From an uncultured Roseovarius sp. (GTDB lineage: Bacteria; Pseudomonadota; Alphaproteobacteria; Rhodobacterales; Rhodobacteraceae), in contig NZ_CAJXNN010000001.1 of NCBI RefSeq assembly GCF_913057115.1, forward strand, positions 1 through 64,000: a DNA stretch of 64,000 bases, read 5' to 3'. The notes beneath the pieces were generated by a model, which was given only the letters and a program-made list of their open reading frames with translations, made no database searches and was not told the origin of the DNA. How positions within the stretch are numbered: the stretch's first letter is position 1; each line of letters begins with the position of its first letter. Of this stretch, positions 50,720-58,485 are shown in pieces. Both the position numbers and the translations under genes were made by a program.

Positions 50720-51487
50720 TTAGCGTGATTGTTCGTGTTCGAACCTTTGGCGCGCGATGGCCTCGTTGCGGTCGGCCTTTTGCTGATCGGTGAGGCACGC
50801 CTCGACATAGTCAAGATGCGCGATGACAGCGGCGCGGGCAGCTTTGCCATCGCGGGCTTGAAGTGCTGCATTTATGGCGCGGTGTTGGTCCAGAAGCGCG
50901 CCGCGCGTGGTGCGCTGTTTGAACATGACTTGGCGGTTGTAGAACACGCCTTCCTGCAAAAGCTGGAACATCGAGCGCATCATGTGCAGCATGACCACGT
51001 TATGGCTGGCCTCGATGATGGCCATGTGAAACTCGGCATCCAGCTGCGCCTCGGTCTTGGGACTGCGCTTGGTGTGGGCCGCTTCCATCTTTTCGAAGAC
51101 GGTCTGCACCACGCGCAGGTCGGTGTCCGAGGCCAAGCGCGCGGCGCGCTCGGCGGCCAGCCCTTCCAGATCACGGCGGAAGGCGATGTAATCGAACACG
51201 GCCTCGTCGTGGTCGGCGAAAAGCCGGATCAGGGCGGGGGAAAAGGCGCTGCCCAGGACATCGGCCACGAAGATACCTGCACCCGCGCGGCTGGAAAGCA
51301 GGCCCTTGTCTTGCAGGTCGGCCACAGCCTCGCGCAGGGAGGGGCGGGAGACCCCCAGCTTTTCGGCCAGTTCACGTTCGGACGGCAGGCGTTCGCCGGG
51401 GCGCAGGATGCCCCGGAGGATCAGCTTTTCGATCTGGCGGGTGACAGCCGTCGAGAGTTTCTCGGGCGTGACTTTTTGAAATGGCAT
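50720..51487 (-). CDS. FadR/GntR family transcriptional regulator
   Basis: LRPGERLPSERELAEKLGVSRPSLREAVADLQDKGLL; FCD-type C-terminus. Confidence 0.93.
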   Translation of the reverse strand: MPFQKVTPEKLSTAVTRQIEKLILRGILRPGERLPSERELAEKLGVSRPSLREAVADLQDKGLLSSRAGAGIFVADVLGSAFSPALIRLFADHDEAVFDYIAFRRDLEGLAAERAARLASDTDLRVVQTVFEKMEAAHTKRSPKTEAQLDAEFHMAIIEASHNVVMLHMMRSMFQLLQEGVFYNRQVMFKQRTTRGALLDQHRAINAALQARDGKAARAAVIAHLDYVEACLTDQQKADRNEAIARQRFEHEQSR

Positions 51488-51546
51488 TGGCGCGGTCCTG
51501 AACGGGGTGGCCGGGATGATAGGGGCAACTGCGACCTCGGGCAAGT

Positions 51547-51912
51547 TCAGCCGCTTTGCCGCCACTTGCCAAACTGTTCAGGCAAGAAGGCCTCAACCGC
51601 CGCCGTGGCGATCACCAAGGTTTCGCCGTTGTCGGGGTTGGTCACGTTTTGCCCGCCTTTGACCGCCGTGACCTTGGCTTGTCCGCGCGGCAGGGTTTTG
51701 GCCAGTGCCGCGCAATCCAGCGCCTCGGGGTCTTGCACGCCGATGGTCACCTGCACCTCCATTTGGCTGTGGCTGATGCCGATGGCCCCGAAGATGGGCA
51801 GGGTGGAATGGCGGATGGCATCCTGAATGGCGCGGGTGGCGGCCTTTTGGTAATCCATCCCGTGCAGGTCGTTGCCCATGCCCATTTCGATAATCACACG
51901 GCGGCGGATCAT
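51547..51912 (-). CDS. Lin0512 family protein (paralogue 1)
   Basis: MGMGNDLHGMDYQKAATRAIQDAI, VQDPEALDCAALA; ATGA overlap with upstream paralogue. Confidence 0.85.
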   Translation of the reverse strand: MIRRRVIIEMGMGNDLHGMDYQKAATRAIQDAIRHSTLPIFGAIGISHSQMEVQVTIGVQDPEALDCAALAKTLPRGQAKVTAVKGGQNVTNPDNGETLVIATAAVEAFLPEQFGKWRQSG

Positions 51913-52262
51913 TGCAGGCGCTCCATGTCAAAGGCCACGGAAATGGCGGCATTGGCGATGACGGTGGGGTTGCCCTCACCTTCCGGGCGGGGGATGTCGA
52001 GGCCACCGTGGGTGGCGGTGACGGTGACTTGGCCATAGGGGAAGACCTCGGCCACGGCTGCACAATCCACGGCGTCGGGGTCTTGCACGGCCACTTCGAC
52101 GTCGATCAGCATGGCGGATTTATCGAAGCCGAAAAGCTCGGCAATGTTGATGGAGTTGTGCCAGAGGGCATCTTGCACGGCGCGCTTGGCGGCTTGGGTA
52201 TAGTCGCGGCGGCGCAGCGAGGTGCCCATGCCGAATTCGGTCAGGACGCGGTGTTTGGGCAT
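51909..52262 (-). CDS. Lin0512 family protein (paralogue 2)
   Basis: FGMGTSLRRRDYTQAAKRAVQDAL, VQDPDAVDCAAVAEVFPYGQVTV. Confidence 0.85.
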   Translation of the reverse strand: MPKHRVLTEFGMGTSLRRRDYTQAAKRAVQDALWHNSINIAELFGFDKSAMLIDVEVAVQDPDAVDCAAVAEVFPYGQVTVTATHGGLDIPRPEGEGNPTVIANAAISVAFDMERLQ

Positions 52263-52313
52263 CGTGGGGTTCCTTCGGTTTTCTGCGCAGTTTGCCGGGA
52301 TCGGCGCGCGGGT

Positions 52314-52976
52314 TCAATGCGGGATCAGCAGGGCGATGACACCGACGATGATCAGGCTCAGCGCCCAGACCACATCAAGGTTGAACCAGCTTTTCTTGAG
52401 GAACTTGAGGCCCAGCCAATAGTAGACGCCCATGGCCACCGCCCCGCCCGAGGCGGCCATGGCAAGGGTGTGCAGCAGGGCCACCATCAACGCGCGGGTT
52501 GTATCCGTCGCCATGAGGGCGGCAGCGGCGCTGTGGCCTGCGTTTTGGTCAATCGTGGCGCAGATGCCAAGGTAGATCGGCACCAGCATCAGCCCCGCCC
52601 CATGCGCCATGGCCGCAAGGAAGGACCAAAGCGCCAGCCTTGTGGGCGGCACACGGGCCAGAAACCTTGGGTGGCGGCGGTTGATCAGAAGGTAAATCCC
52701 GAGGCCAATCACCAGACAGGCAGCAGCAATGCGCAATTCACGCTGCCATTCGACCAGCGTGACCATGAGCGAGAAGGGCAAAAGCACCACCACCATGGCC
52801 AGCATGTGCCCCACCGCCAGCGCCAGAAGCGCGCGGTACAGGGCCCCTGCCCGGCTTTCCATCAGTGCCGCCGACACCGCCAGCGGCCAGCCCATGCCGG
52901 GGTTGATCCCATGGTAGATGCCTGACGCGGCCACGGCCCACCACAGGGCTGCCGTCGTCGAAATATCGCCTGTCAT
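52314..52976 (-). CDS. Multi-TM membrane protein with HGINPGMGW and HGAGLMLVP motifs
   Basis: About six TM segments; HGxNPG motif resembles NicO/UreH-type metal transporters. Confidence 0.75.
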   Translation of the reverse strand: MTGDISTTAALWWAVAASGIYHGINPGMGWPLAVSAALMESRAGALYRALLALAVGHMLAMVVVLLPFSLMVTLVEWQRELRIAAACLVIGLGIYLLINRRHPRFLARVPPTRLALWSFLAAMAHGAGLMLVPIYLGICATIDQNAGHSAAAALMATDTTRALMVALLHTLAMAASGGAVAMGVYYWLGLKFLKKSWFNLDVVWALSLIIVGVIALLIPH

Positions 52977-53068
52977 ATATGTTCTGCCCGCCCGCCCCGG
53001 GCGCATCCCGGGGCCTCATGGTTGGCCGAGAAGTCCCGGGTTACGCCCGGGACGCCGTTCAGCATGGT

Positions 53069-54469
53069 TCAGACAGAGGGGTAGCAGAAGCTATCGGTGG
53101 AACAATCGCCCCCCTCAAGCCGGATTTGGTGCGCGCGGTAGCCCTTGGGGAAGTTCACGTAGAAATCCTTGTCCAAGGTCAGGCCGCCGTTTTCGCCCAC
53201 ATGGGCCATGACCATCTGCCCGCCTTCATCGTCGGGATAGAATTGATCGTCCCACGAGGAATAGAGCGAGTTGGTCCAATAGACGCGTTTACCATCGCGG
53301 CTGATTTCCACCATCTGCGGGCCATAGGCGAAATCCTGACCGTTGGGGTGTTTTTTATCGGCCACGATGCCGCCCAGTTCGACCTTACCGGCCAGCGTGG
53401 GGTTCATCGGGTCGGAGACATCGTATTGATGCATCTCACCAGTGCCCCAGCAGGCGACGTAGAGGTATTTGTCGTCAAGCGAGAGGTCGATATCGGTAAC
53501 CAGCGGCGGCACCGCCTCGAACCCTTTGAGAAGCTCGGGCAGATCATCGGCGGCGGCGGGTTGCGGCGGGATGGTGATGGTTTTCTTGGCCTCGAATGTG
53601 CCGTCATCCTTGCGCCACCATGTCCAGATGGAGCCTTCGAGGTTTGTGGTATCCACCACCACGCCGCAGAAGCCGTAATCCTTGGCCGGGTCGTGGGCGG
53701 GACGAATCTCCAACGCCATCTGGTGGTTTTCGCCCAGGTCGATGGTTTGGACGTTCTTGCGCGCGCGCAGATCCCAGAAGTGGATCGCGTGGCCATATTT
53801 GTTGGACAGAAGATCCTCAGGTACGATGCCGTTTTCAAACTGCGGCGGCAGGCCCCATTCGGAACTGACCATGTAGTTGCGCGGCAGGTTCCACCAGAAA
53901 TCATAGTGTTTGTCCTGTGCCCCACGGTCCATTTCATAGCGGCCAAGGATTTCGAAGGTTTCGCAATCCATGATGAAGATGCCCGGCGGGCCATCCATGC
54001 CATCCTCGCCGCCACCACCAAGGGTGGAGACATAGATGCCTTCGGGGCCGCAGTGGATGGTATGCGGGCGGGAATAGCCGGTTTTCTCGAACACCTCTTC
54101 AGGTTCGATAACCTTGTGAATCTTGGCCTTGAGCGGCTCTTTCACGTCGATGATGTAAATCCGGCTGGAACGGATGCCGGGAATGATCAGGTAGCGGCGT
54201 TCAAGGAAAGCATGGCCAGTCAGCGGCGAGAGCGCCGAGGAACAGGCGTTCCAGCCGAAATGGTGAAACTCATCGCCTTTATGGGGCATGATCACCTGAT
54301 GCAGGATTTCGCCAAAGGTTTTCGACTTGGGGTCAACATCGACCACGGCCAGACCGTCGGGTTGGCTGCCATCGGGGCTGAGCATCAAGGTGAAGGCCAG
54401 CGTTTCGGCGGGGGCCTCCATGGCCATTTTCGGGGTCGCGTGAAAGGTTGGGTCCGGTCTTAGATTCAT
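53069..54469 (-). CDS. mtoX: Selenium-binding protein SBP56 family / methanethiol oxidase
   Basis: FHHFGWNACSSALS, SRPHTIHCGPEGIYVS, GYRAHQIRLEGGDCSTDSFCYP. Confidence 0.9.
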   Translation of the reverse strand: MNLRPDPTFHATPKMAMEAPAETLAFTLMLSPDGSQPDGLAVVDVDPKSKTFGEILHQVIMPHKGDEFHHFGWNACSSALSPLTGHAFLERRYLIIPGIRSSRIYIIDVKEPLKAKIHKVIEPEEVFEKTGYSRPHTIHCGPEGIYVSTLGGGGEDGMDGPPGIFIMDCETFEILGRYEMDRGAQDKHYDFWWNLPRNYMVSSEWGLPPQFENGIVPEDLLSNKYGHAIHFWDLRARKNVQTIDLGENHQMALEIRPAHDPAKDYGFCGVVVDTTNLEGSIWTWWRKDDGTFEAKKTITIPPQPAAADDLPELLKGFEAVPPLVTDIDLSLDDKYLYVACWGTGEMHQYDVSDPMNPTLAGKVELGGIVADKKHPNGQDFAYGPQMVEISRDGKRVYWTNSLYSSWDDQFYPDDEGGQMVMAHVGENGGLTLDKDFYVNFPKGYRAHQIRLEGGDCSTDSFCYPSV

Positions 54470-54594
54470 GTGAAATTCCTCCCTGTGCGGGTGCCTTTTT
54501 TGAAATACCGACAGCACCCTGCGGCAGAGGGTCGCACATAATCAAATGTCTGACAAATGAAATCGCTCTTAAGTTGCTGGGCCTCTTAAGGTGA

Positions 54595-55373: not shown

Positions 55374-55982
55374 TTAGAACTCCACCCCGATTTGCGCCTT
55401 GATGCCTGAGCGGAAGGGATGCTTCACCAGTTCCATTTCGGTTACCAAGTCGGCGATTTCGATTAGGTCATCCTTGGCGTTGCGGCCTGTCAGGACGACG
55501 TGGGTCATGTGCGGTTTTTCCTCGGCGAGGAATTGAACCACCTCGTCGATATCAAGGTAGTCGTAGCGCAGGGCGATGTTGATTTCGTCCAGCAGGACCA
55601 TCTTGTTGGCCTCATCCCGGATCAACTCCTTGGCCTTTTCCCATGCGGCTTGGGCCATTTCGGTATCGCGCTCGCGATCCTGGGTTTCCCAGGTGAAGCC
55701 CTCGCCCATGGTGTGGAACGAACAGGTGTCGGAAAACTTGGACAGGATCATGTCGCGTTCGCCCGTGCTCATCCCGCCCTTGATGAACTGCACCACGGCG
55801 CATTTCATGTCATGGGCGATGCAGCGGAAGATCATCCCGAAGGCGGCCGAGGATTTGCCCTTGCCCTTGCCGGTGTGGACGATGATCAGGCCTTTCTCAT
55901 CGGTCTTGGTGGCCATGATCTTGTCGCGGGCGGCCTTTTTCTTGGCCATTTTCATCGCGTGGCGGTCGGGGTCGTCAGACAT
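55374..55982 (-). CDS. cobO: Cob(I)yrinic acid a,c-diamide adenosyltransferase
   Basis: GLIIVHTGKGKGKSSAAFGMIFR; KMVLLDEINIALRYDYL; VVLTGRNA. Confidence 0.95.
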   Translation of the reverse strand: MSDDPDRHAMKMAKKKAARDKIMATKTDEKGLIIVHTGKGKGKSSAAFGMIFRCIAHDMKCAVVQFIKGGMSTGERDMILSKFSDTCSFHTMGEGFTWETQDRERDTEMAQAAWEKAKELIRDEANKMVLLDEINIALRYDYLDIDEVVQFLAEEKPHMTHVVLTGRNAKDDLIEIADLVTEMELVKHPFRSGIKAQIGVEF

Positions 55983-55997
55983 GAGCGCGGTTTCCTT

Positions 55998-56714
55998 TCA
56001 CTGGAATAGACCCAAAACATAAGGCGCAATCAGGGCGGTTAGCAAGGCATTGAGGCCCATGCCGATACCTGCGAAGGCACCGGCGGTTTGATTGACCTGA
56101 AAGGCGCGGGCGGTGCCGATGCCGTGGGCGGCGACCCCCACCGAAAAGCCGCGCGCGCGCCAATCGGTGATGCGCAGGGCGTTCATCAGCGGCGTGACCA
56201 CGACCGCACCGATAATCCCGGTGATGATGACAAGGGCCGCGGTGAGTGTGGGCAAACCGCCCAGTTTCTCGGCGATACCGATGGCGACGGGCGCGGTGGT
56301 GGATTTCGGCGCGAGCGAGGCCAGCGTTGCACCTTCGACGCCCAGGGCTTTGGCAATCCAGAGCGCAGACGCAACAGCAGTGACCGAGCCCACGATCAAC
56401 GCGCCCGCCATGGGAAGGAGCGTACGCCGGACGTGGTGCAGGTTGCTGTAGAGCGGACCAGCAAGCGCCACAGTGGCCGGGCCAAGCATGAAATGCACGA
56501 ACTGCGCGCCCTCGAAATAGGTGGCATAGGGGGTTCGCGTGGCCCAGAGCACCACGCCGAGGATCACCATGGCCAGCAGCACCGGGTTGACCAGTGGGTT
56601 GCGGCCCGAGGCGCGGAACAGGGCATCGCCGATGAGGTAAGCGATCAGCGTGGCCGTCAGCCACAAAAGCGGCCCTTCGCGCAGGTAGGACCAGATGTCG
56701 GGCAGGTCAGTCAT
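55998..56714 (-). CDS. LrgB family protein
   Basis: LGPATVALAGPLYSN; APKSTTAPVAIGIAE; GVAAHGIGTARAFQ. Confidence 0.93.
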   Translation of the reverse strand: MTDLPDIWSYLREGPLLWLTATLIAYLIGDALFRASGRNPLVNPVLLAMVILGVVLWATRTPYATYFEGAQFVHFMLGPATVALAGPLYSNLHHVRRTLLPMAGALIVGSVTAVASALWIAKALGVEGATLASLAPKSTTAPVAIGIAEKLGGLPTLTAALVIITGIIGAVVVTPLMNALRITDWRARGFSVGVAAHGIGTARAFQVNQTAGAFAGIGMGLNALLTALIAPYVLGLFQ

Positions 56715-57070
56715 TCCGCGCCCTCCGTACTGCCGGTCAGGCGGGCGAGGGCCACGAAAGTCAGTGCGCCTGCGACAAGCGCGATAAGAGTGCTGGCCAC
56801 CAGCGCCGCTATGAGGGCAAGGCCCGAAGTGCCCAAGACCTCGACATGGCTGATGACACCGACCCCAGCGGGCACGAAGAGCAGCGACAGATGCGCAAGG
56901 ATGCCTTGCGAGGTTGGCAGGATGCGTTCGGCAAGCGGCTTGCTTGCCAGGAAACTCACCAGCAAAAGCGCCATGCCGATCACCGGGCCGGGGATGGGCA
57001 GCGCCAGCAGGCGAGCCAGCACCTCCCCCACCAGTTGGGCAACGAGGATAATGGCGATGTTGAGGATCAT
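56711..57070 (-). CDS. CidA/LrgA family protein
   Basis: LPIPGPVIGMALLL; paired with LrgB. Confidence 0.9.
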   Translation of the reverse strand: MILNIAIILVAQLVGEVLARLLALPIPGPVIGMALLLVSFLASKPLAERILPTSQGILAHLSLLFVPAGVGVISHVEVLGTSGLALIAALVASTLIALVAGALTFVALARLTGSTEGAE

Positions 57071-57160
57071 GGGATTGGCCTTTCGCGTCATGCTCTGGGT
57101 CAGCATATGGACCGCGCAGCGAAAGGAAAGACCGCGCCCGGGGGACGCGGCCCTTTGGTT

Positions 57161-58372
57161 CTAAGCGTGGGCTGTGGCGCGTGGGGCGGCAGGCCGCCCG
57201 AAATGCCGCTTGTTGAGATGCAGCATCAGCCAGATCATCGCGAATTGCGAGGCCAGCGCGATGGCGGTCAGCGCCCAGAAGGCCAGCCCGAACTTGTCGA
57301 TCACACCGGCTTCTACCAGCCCCTTGTTGACGAAGAAATGCATCATCACCGCGAAGGCCACACCGGGGCAGATCAGGGCATATGAGCCGGGCGAGGTTTT
57401 CTCACCGGTGACGAACTCGGACATGTACCCCTGACGCTTCAGGACCAGGAGGCCAAGCAGCAGGAACAGCACCTCGATGGTCAGCAGGCGGGCGAGAAAC
57501 ACCAGCGTTTCACCCGGTGTGCCGTGGGCGTCAAAGGCCACGTGCAACCCATGGTTCTGCCGCATGAAAAGAATACCCAGAACGGTGACAATCGGCACGA
57601 CGACCATCAGGGTCGGCGCGGCCTCTTTCGCGGTGCCGTGGTGGAGCATGGAGTTGAAGCCGGTGATCGCGGCGACCAGCGTGTAGATGATAGCGGTGAT
57701 CCCGAAGAAGGTGGAAAGCACAAGGCTGACCCCGACTGTAATGGTGTTGGTGCTCATGGCGGCAGGTGCGGCGAGGCCCACGCCAACCATCGAGATCGCG
57801 AAGGCGGGCAAGAGTTGGGCAAAGGAGTTATGAGCGGTGACGTCGAACACCCCGCCTTGGGTCAGAACCCGGCCAAGAAAATGGCCGATCAGGCGGAAGG
57901 CCCAGACCCCCAAACCTAAGAAGGCCACAAGCGCCAGCGGGAAGAGGTATTCGACGATTCCCCAAAGCCCCGGCACGAAGACCAGACCAAGGATGAAGCC
58001 GACGTTGATTGTCATGGCGGATGCCAAGGGCGCGGCCAGAAGGGTGGTTTCGCCATTGGTTTTTCGCAAATCGTTGTACGCTTGGGTCTTCATGAAGCGA
58101 CGCAGGGCAGCGATATTCCAGATCAATGATTTGATATTGAGAATGGCCATCGCGGCGATACCCAGCCACGCTGTGACGATGGCCGCTTGCAATGCAGGGT
58201 TTCCGCCGCTGAAGGCCGCCATCACATCCTCGAACACCGGCACGGGGCGGCCCGGATGCGGCACCCAGAACATCAGGTACATGAAGAAGGTGACCACAAG
58301 CCCCCCTGCCCCAAGCGAGGCAAGGAAGTAGAGCGGTGAATAGGTATCGGCGGGGCGGGTTTGTGCGGGCAT
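57161..58372 (-). CDS. Large multi-TM protein, TsoY family-like
   Basis: About ten TM; SLGAGGLVVTFFMYLMFWVPHPGRPVPVFEDV; family assignment from memory only. Confidence 0.6.
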   Translation of the reverse strand: MPAQTRPADTYSPLYFLASLGAGGLVVTFFMYLMFWVPHPGRPVPVFEDVMAAFSGGNPALQAAIVTAWLGIAAMAILNIKSLIWNIAALRRFMKTQAYNDLRKTNGETTLLAAPLASAMTINVGFILGLVFVPGLWGIVEYLFPLALVAFLGLGVWAFRLIGHFLGRVLTQGGVFDVTAHNSFAQLLPAFAISMVGVGLAAPAAMSTNTITVGVSLVLSTFFGITAIIYTLVAAITGFNSMLHHGTAKEAAPTLMVVVPIVTVLGILFMRQNHGLHVAFDAHGTPGETLVFLARLLTIEVLFLLLGLLVLKRQGYMSEFVTGEKTSPGSYALICPGVAFAVMMHFFVNKGLVEAGVIDKFGLAFWALTAIALASQFAMIWLMLHLNKRHFGRPAAPRATAHA

Positions 58373-58385
58373 GGTCGCCTCCTTT

Positions 58386-58430
58386 CACATTCCAATTTCG
58401 GAATATATTACATTCTAAAATTGGAATGTG
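58386..58430. promoter_or_regulatory. Tandem ATTC-N8-GAAT operators upstream of the TsoY-like gene
   Basis: ATTCCAATTTCGGAAT 58389-58404 and ATTCTAAAATTGGAAT 58412-58427; outer perfect 13-bp inverted repeat CACATTCCAATTT/AAATTGGAATGTG. Confidence 0.75.
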
Positions 58431-58485
58431 TATGGGGCGGAATGTCGCTGCCTGAAACTGAAGAGGGCTGGAAGGCCGTTACATG

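Follow-up and report, generated by a model that had tools for sequence, protein, structure and literature searches.

Two adjacent ATTC-N8-GAAT dyads precede the gene for a TsoY-family membrane protein in the 64,000-nucleotide stretch of Roseovarius DNA analysed here (the window), and this pair of dyads is genuine, with conservation across the marine Rhodobacteraceae. Most likely it is the docking site of a sulfide- or persulfide-sensing repressor that is encoded elsewhere in the genome. The dyads are very probably operators of the SqrR/BigR/SoxR type, and they are probably bound by an SqrR-like ArsR paralogue, C12 ArsR. For this we computed the operator and its conservation, its sharing with pmpAB, the co-occurrence of the paralogue, the shift of the half-site and the predicted fold of TsoY.

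Both dyads match ATTC-N8-GAAT exactly and start 23 bp apart (Table 1). They are framed by a perfect 13-bp inverted repeat, CACATTCCAATTT (58386-58398) and AAATTGGAATGTG (58418-58430), which is read directly from the sequence and is nested, according to an inverted-repeat search, in a larger inverted repeat of 27 nt (81%). The coordinates given for this arrangement in the original prediction were confirmed exactly. A scan for hairpins or terminators gave no match, nor did a sigma-70 promoter scan. The GCGACA element farther upstream is possibly an activator site, RegA/PrrA-like by resemblance alone. Two single dyads in a 64-kb window are unremarkable (1.07 expected; 32 of 100 shuffles reach two), and hence the case rests on their arrangement and conservation.

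Table 1. Features of the TsoY locus in the window.
Feature	Position	Strand	Remarks
TsoY-family membrane protein gene, 403 aa	57161..58372	-	NF047644 527.6 bits; AlphaFold2 pTM 0.85; Foldseek TehA/SLAC1 top hits
TsoY start codon ATG	58370-58372	-	minus-strand gene
Shine-Dalgarno GGAGG of TsoY	58378..58382	-	from the sequence
13-bp inverted repeat framing both dyads	58386..58430	.	14-58 bp 5' of ATG; from the sequence and inverted repeat I1
Proximal dyad ATTCCAATTTCGGAAT	58389..58404	.	17-32 bp 5' of ATG; exact match, kept in orthologue promoters
Distal dyad ATTCTAAAATTGGAAT	58412..58427	.	40-55 bp 5' of ATG; exact match; pair kept at 23-26 bp in about half of 81 promoters
GCGACA element	58443..58448	-	71-76 bp 5' of TsoY ATG; in promoters of orthologues concentrated at -73 to -90

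Conservation upstream of orthologues, on which the original prediction was staked, is indeed strong. In the promoters of 80 orthologous loci and the window (81 in total), dyads were sought within 160 bp upstream of TsoY. The exact motif is present in 64 of the 81 (shuffles: mean 0.23), and 72 carry it with at most one mismatch (shuffles 5.1). Paired dyads with a spacing of 20-26 bp were found in 45/81 promoters, or in 40/81 when counted more strictly (shuffles 0.63). In most cases the proximal dyad occupies -30 to -36, and its distal partner -54 to -61. Conservation extends to the single 16-bp dyads, the inner bases of which vary, and to their spacing of 23-26 bp; the outer 13-bp repeat is not conserved. 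Adjacency and conservation of the dyads are far above chance. Additionally, 15 TsoY promoters contain an FNR-like box TTGA-N6-TCAA, most of them at -72 to -78 (shuffles 0.1), while in others GCGACA takes up a similar position, a layout that suggests an activator bound upstream and a repressor covering the core promoter. Three more distant genomes possess TsoY without an ATTC-N8-GAAT dyad. In one distant genome (L299), two ATTAG-N6-CTAAT dyads flank an FNR-like box about 200 bp 5' of TsoY, with the same 16-bp geometry and a different half-site.

The genome-wide distribution of the dyad was analyzed by pattern search. The genome of the window (G000; 3.44 Mb, 76 contigs, a single TsoY) has the exact single dyad at 32 sites and a sole exact double dyad, the one upstream of TsoY. 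Across 49 genomes we detected the exact double dyad at 17 places, 15 of them before TsoY. One further copy precedes a two-gene YeeE/YedE operon (PF04143, DUF6691; pmpAB-type), and the last one lies in Seohaeicola between coxE- and xdhC-like genes (L167, 1501-1541), where relatives carry pmpAB; it looks like an operator relic after pmpAB loss. A second sample of 199 family genomes again gave real double dyads before TsoY (14 checked) or pmpAB (3). Phaeobacter marinintestinus UB-M7, a cultivable relative, carries them in exact form in front of TsoY and of pmpAB alike (loci L006 and L172). Paired matches with an GAATTTGCAAATTC centre and a spacing of 22 (G068 C10, G073, G082, G148 and G170) precede neither TsoY nor pmpAB and were rejected as another element. 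Elements of the form ATTC-N8-GAATTTGCAAATTC-N8-GAAT were seen at L235, L239, L244, L246 and L248 in several Rhodobacteraceae, with three near-identical copies in one genome.

In most of 23 genomes a dyad lies at -32 to -40 before pmpAB, with or without a C12-type paralogue, and often there is an FNR-like box near -75, like in many TsoY promoters. In G000 we found dyads before soxC and at an upstream position of the sox cluster (C34; its genes were assigned by eye from the ORFs), before the genes for a Blh-like persulfide dioxygenase and a rhodanese (C72), and before those for a SoxH-like hydrolase and a rhodanese (C58). The site is thus common to known reactive-sulfur targets, in the relatives (pmpAB-type) as well as in G000. 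ATTC-N8-GAAT is also the deduced site of Rhodobacter capsulatus SqrR (RcSqrR) and was found for YgaV too (PMC9774250), and yeeE-yedE-pdo2 is controlled by BigR in Acinetobacter (PMC7315123). Because the dyad matches the SqrR site and BigR-type targets carry it, TsoY belongs, by its operator, in a reactive-sulfur regulon. Both the operator class and the sulfur link of the original prediction have therefore held up.

Three further loci of G000 deserve mention. Its true SLAC1-family gene (PF03595, 184 bits) lies, together with a small gene that is DsrE-like by eye, behind an FNR box and the one-mismatch dyad ATATGCTGAATATGGAATGT (L127 2348-3791; C27). The arrangement is kept in three Roseovarius-group relatives, and the locus is a probable second anion-channel target; as a general target it was rejected, being conserved in four Roseovarius-group genomes only. 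The one-mismatch dyad ACATGCGAGATTCGGAATGT stands beside an FNR-like box, TTGATCTAAATCAA, before the gene for a Spy/metal-resistance-like periplasmic protein (L128 2400-2890; C3:2955). Finally, the perfect palindrome ACATTCCAGCGCTGGAATGT precedes DUF2946-like genes (L129 3640-4050; C14:24530); it fits the TsoY half-site, and its context looks metal-related.

The original prediction had the regulator act in trans and suggested a search of the genome for an SqrR/BigR homologue. This part stands: the conserved neighbours of TsoY in 80 loci include no ArsR gene, and the seven HTH_5 matches in G000 include two SqrR-like proteins, namely SoxR, encoded within the sox cluster (C34), and the orphan C12 ArsR, neither of them beside TsoY. 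What had to be refined is the identity of the regulator, since the best candidate is a paralogue distinct from SqrR and SoxR. The best solved relative of both proteins is R. capsulatus SqrR (6o8k). Every aligned member, C12 and C34 among them, retains the two SqrR cysteines, so that both proteins have the sensing cysteines of this ArsR type. Where the likely recognition helix would have Q, C12 ArsR (104 aa) has M/I; its orthologues read RQAAVSQ[M/I]LARLR, while SqrR and SoxR read RQAAVSQQL. By analogy with the ArsR fold, the variable residue would sit in the DNA-reading helix. Against the BigR equivalog NF040642 the protein reaches 105.7 bits, below the 155-bit cut-off, and it is best described as an SqrR-like paralogue and not as BigR itself. 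Orthologues are present in 29 of 48 TsoY genomes with 69-86% identity and at least 138 bits; the next paralogue scores at most 120.4 bits. The gene is usually located behind an enolase-superfamily gene, with no sulfur gene cluster around it. Upstream of the paralogue itself no dyad was seen in 31 loci, for which reason autoregulation via the same dyad was rejected.

The double operator co-occurs with the paralogue. It is present in 24 of the 30 genomes with the C12 paralogue (window included) versus 0/19 without it (Fisher 1e-8); in the remaining six paralogue-bearing genomes the dyad is degraded or single. In the second sample all 19 double-dyad genomes have the paralogue (127.6-157 bits) versus 0/27 controls without a double dyad (at most 124.4 bits), although the score gap of 127.6 versus 124.4 bits is narrow. 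Four of these 19 genomes appear, by their coordinates, to repeat the first set, and one (G068) was included because of its site sequence, with the gene behind the site left unchecked. The half-site changes as well: before TsoY it is ATTCC in 61/93 cases with the paralogue and ATTCA in 19/29 without it (p 5e-6), and at the single dyads of sox, Blh, SoxH and pmpAB genes none of the 20 half-sites counted has C as its fifth base, all of them having A or T there. The half-site difference (ATTCC or ATTCA) thus goes hand in hand with that in the helix residue (M/I or Q).

The main rival to C12 ArsR is SoxR of the sox cluster (C34), which as an ordinary sulfane-sulfur repressor would bind the dyads itself; the paralogue would then be irrelevant and its co-occurrence a matter of shared ancestry. 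SoxR-like proteins are indeed found in nearly all TsoY genomes compared, and genomes without the paralogue keep a single dyad before TsoY and pmpAB. Moreover, the paralogue state changes independently only about 2-4 times on the TsoY tree, so few times that an independent-pairs test is powerless, and the phylogenetic association of paralogue and double dyad rests on few independent events. Nevertheless, the double dyad is missing from all 19 genomes with SoxR-like proteins and no paralogue, the half-site preference differs between the two groups, and C was never seen as the fifth base in the half-sites tallied for sox, Blh and single pmpAB dyads. We therefore regard SoxR as the rather unlikely reader of the TsoY pair. 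It is clearly less probable still that the dyad serves a regulator of another kind, such as a metal sensor or a MarR/Rrf2-type protein. The palindrome before the DUF2946-like genes of the same genome and the frequent position of TsoY between cobN and cobO would fit such a regulator, but the double dyad is shared with a YeeE/YedE sulfur-transport operon, the motif is identical to the SqrR site in the literature (PMC9774250), and an SqrR-like paralogue co-occurs with the dyad. A chance or structural feature without a DNA-binding role (e.g. an mRNA hairpin) is disfavoured as highly improbable: the number of single dyads lies within chance and a long inverted repeat does precede the start codon, but conservation (64/81 exact versus 0.23 in shuffles) rejects a chance origin, the 16-bp dyads and their spacing are kept while the outer 13-bp repeat is not, and a terminator-like site is absent.

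With C12 ArsR as the preferred regulator, we turn to the protein under its putative control. It is a TsoY-like membrane protein, as originally proposed, and matches NF047644 over its full length far above the cut-off of 150 bits. The selenoprotein TsoY model NF047643 gives 50.5 bits (cut-off 250); the gene product is not a selenoprotein. Since "Tso" denotes the three selenoprotein operon (PMC13188914), the name is no evidence of a sulfur function, and to read it as thiosulfate is wrong. A Pfam search matched no family, PF03595 (SLAC1) included, and neither sequence and profile searches against the PDB nor a comparison with a viral fold library gave a match. An AlphaFold2 model from 24 orthologous sequences (pLDDT 83, pTM 0.85) was compared with the PDB by Foldseek, and the first eleven matches were all TehA/SLAC1; the top match, TehA, has a probability of 1.00 and a TM-score of 0.66 on the target, but an E value of 4e-3 and an rmsd of 5.9. 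The predicted fold of TsoY appears to resemble that of the SLAC1/TehA anion channels, and the protein is probably a channel-like transporter. That it moves a sulfur anion in the manner of a channel is a possibility that we hold a little below even.

In many relatives (loci L001-L080) TsoY is located between cobN and cobO, and in the window it adjoins lrgAB and cobO (55374-58372); we found no reason for this tie to cobalamin genes. In another family of the phylum (L298, 323-4137), TsoY is flanked by a gene for an octaheme tetrathionate-reductase-family cytochrome c and by a SLAC1 gene; this is one of the three distant genomes in which TsoY has no ATTC-N8-GAAT dyad. On the minus strand of the window (50720-54517), a short way downstream of TsoY with a few genes in between, genes for SBP56 (selenium-binding, methanethiol-oxidase-like), an unassigned membrane protein, two Lin0512-family proteins and a GntR/FCD regulator are grouped. 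MTO chemistry liberates H2S, and a tie of the SBP56 cluster to sulfur sensing is thus conceivable.

In summary, we propose the following explanation, which we consider likely as a whole. Two C12 ArsR dimers would occupy the two dyads on the TsoY promoter, separated by about two turns of the helix, and thereby block transcription. Upon build-up of persulfide or polysulfide, a sulfur bridge would form between the two ArsR cysteines and release the repressor from its operator, so that TsoY would be expressed, aided in many relatives by an FNR-type activator bound upstream. TsoY could then pass a sulfur anion (e.g. sulfite or thiosulfate) or a related anion via its SLAC1/TehA-like pore. The binding of C12 ArsR, the inducer, the sign of the control and the TsoY substrate are the steps that we infer. 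One may speculate further, with a good deal of doubt, that Rhodobacteraceae possess a specificity-switched SqrR paralogue (SQQL to SQ[M/I]L, ATTCA to ATTCC) with a two-dimer operator that is largely dedicated to a SLAC1-like TsoY moving a reactive sulfur anion. In the open-access papers searched we found no report of TsoY control or of a C12-type paralogue. TsoY, a family of no known function, hereby gains a testable regulator, inducer and fold and would be tied to sulfur stress, while the reactive-sulfur response of marine Rhodobacteraceae gains a probable channel-like protein. The two paralogous persulfide sensors form a natural pair, in which the operators differ along with one residue of the likely recognition helix, and offer a simple system to study sensor divergence.

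Compared with known systems, TsoY appears to resemble the SLAC1/TehA (TDT) anion channels in its predicted fold, but has no detectable sequence similarity to them, lies outside Pfam SLAC1 and is longer (403 versus about 310 aa). With the Tso system (selenoprotein TsoY, ArsR-type TsoR) it shares the TsoY family, although the selenocysteine form does not occur here and the regulators considered here reach just 44 of 115 bits against TsoR. That NCBIfam names an ArsR-type TsoR there hints, independently though weakly, at an association of TsoY with ArsR regulators. The BigR regulon (yeeE-yedE-pdo2 of Acinetobacter baumannii; the Xylella bigR operon) is alike in that this type of dyad is found here, too, before a YeeE/YedE pair and before a Blh-like dioxygenase gene; it differs in that our candidate regulator is encoded outside the target operons and scores below the NCBIfam BigR cut-off. 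SoxR of the sox clusters (Hyphomicrobium, Paracoccus) is a homologous ArsR protein with a soxR-like counterpart in the G000 sox cluster, whereas the C12 paralogue is an orphan and TsoY lies outside that cluster. Finally, the SqrR regulon of R. capsulatus is alike in its ATTC-N8-GAAT sites and in its two-cysteine ArsR repressor, the cysteines of which are found in C12 and C34; in contrast to it, we find here a separate paralogue with M/I for Q, a double operator, mostly ATTCC half-sites and a target predicted to be SLAC1-like.
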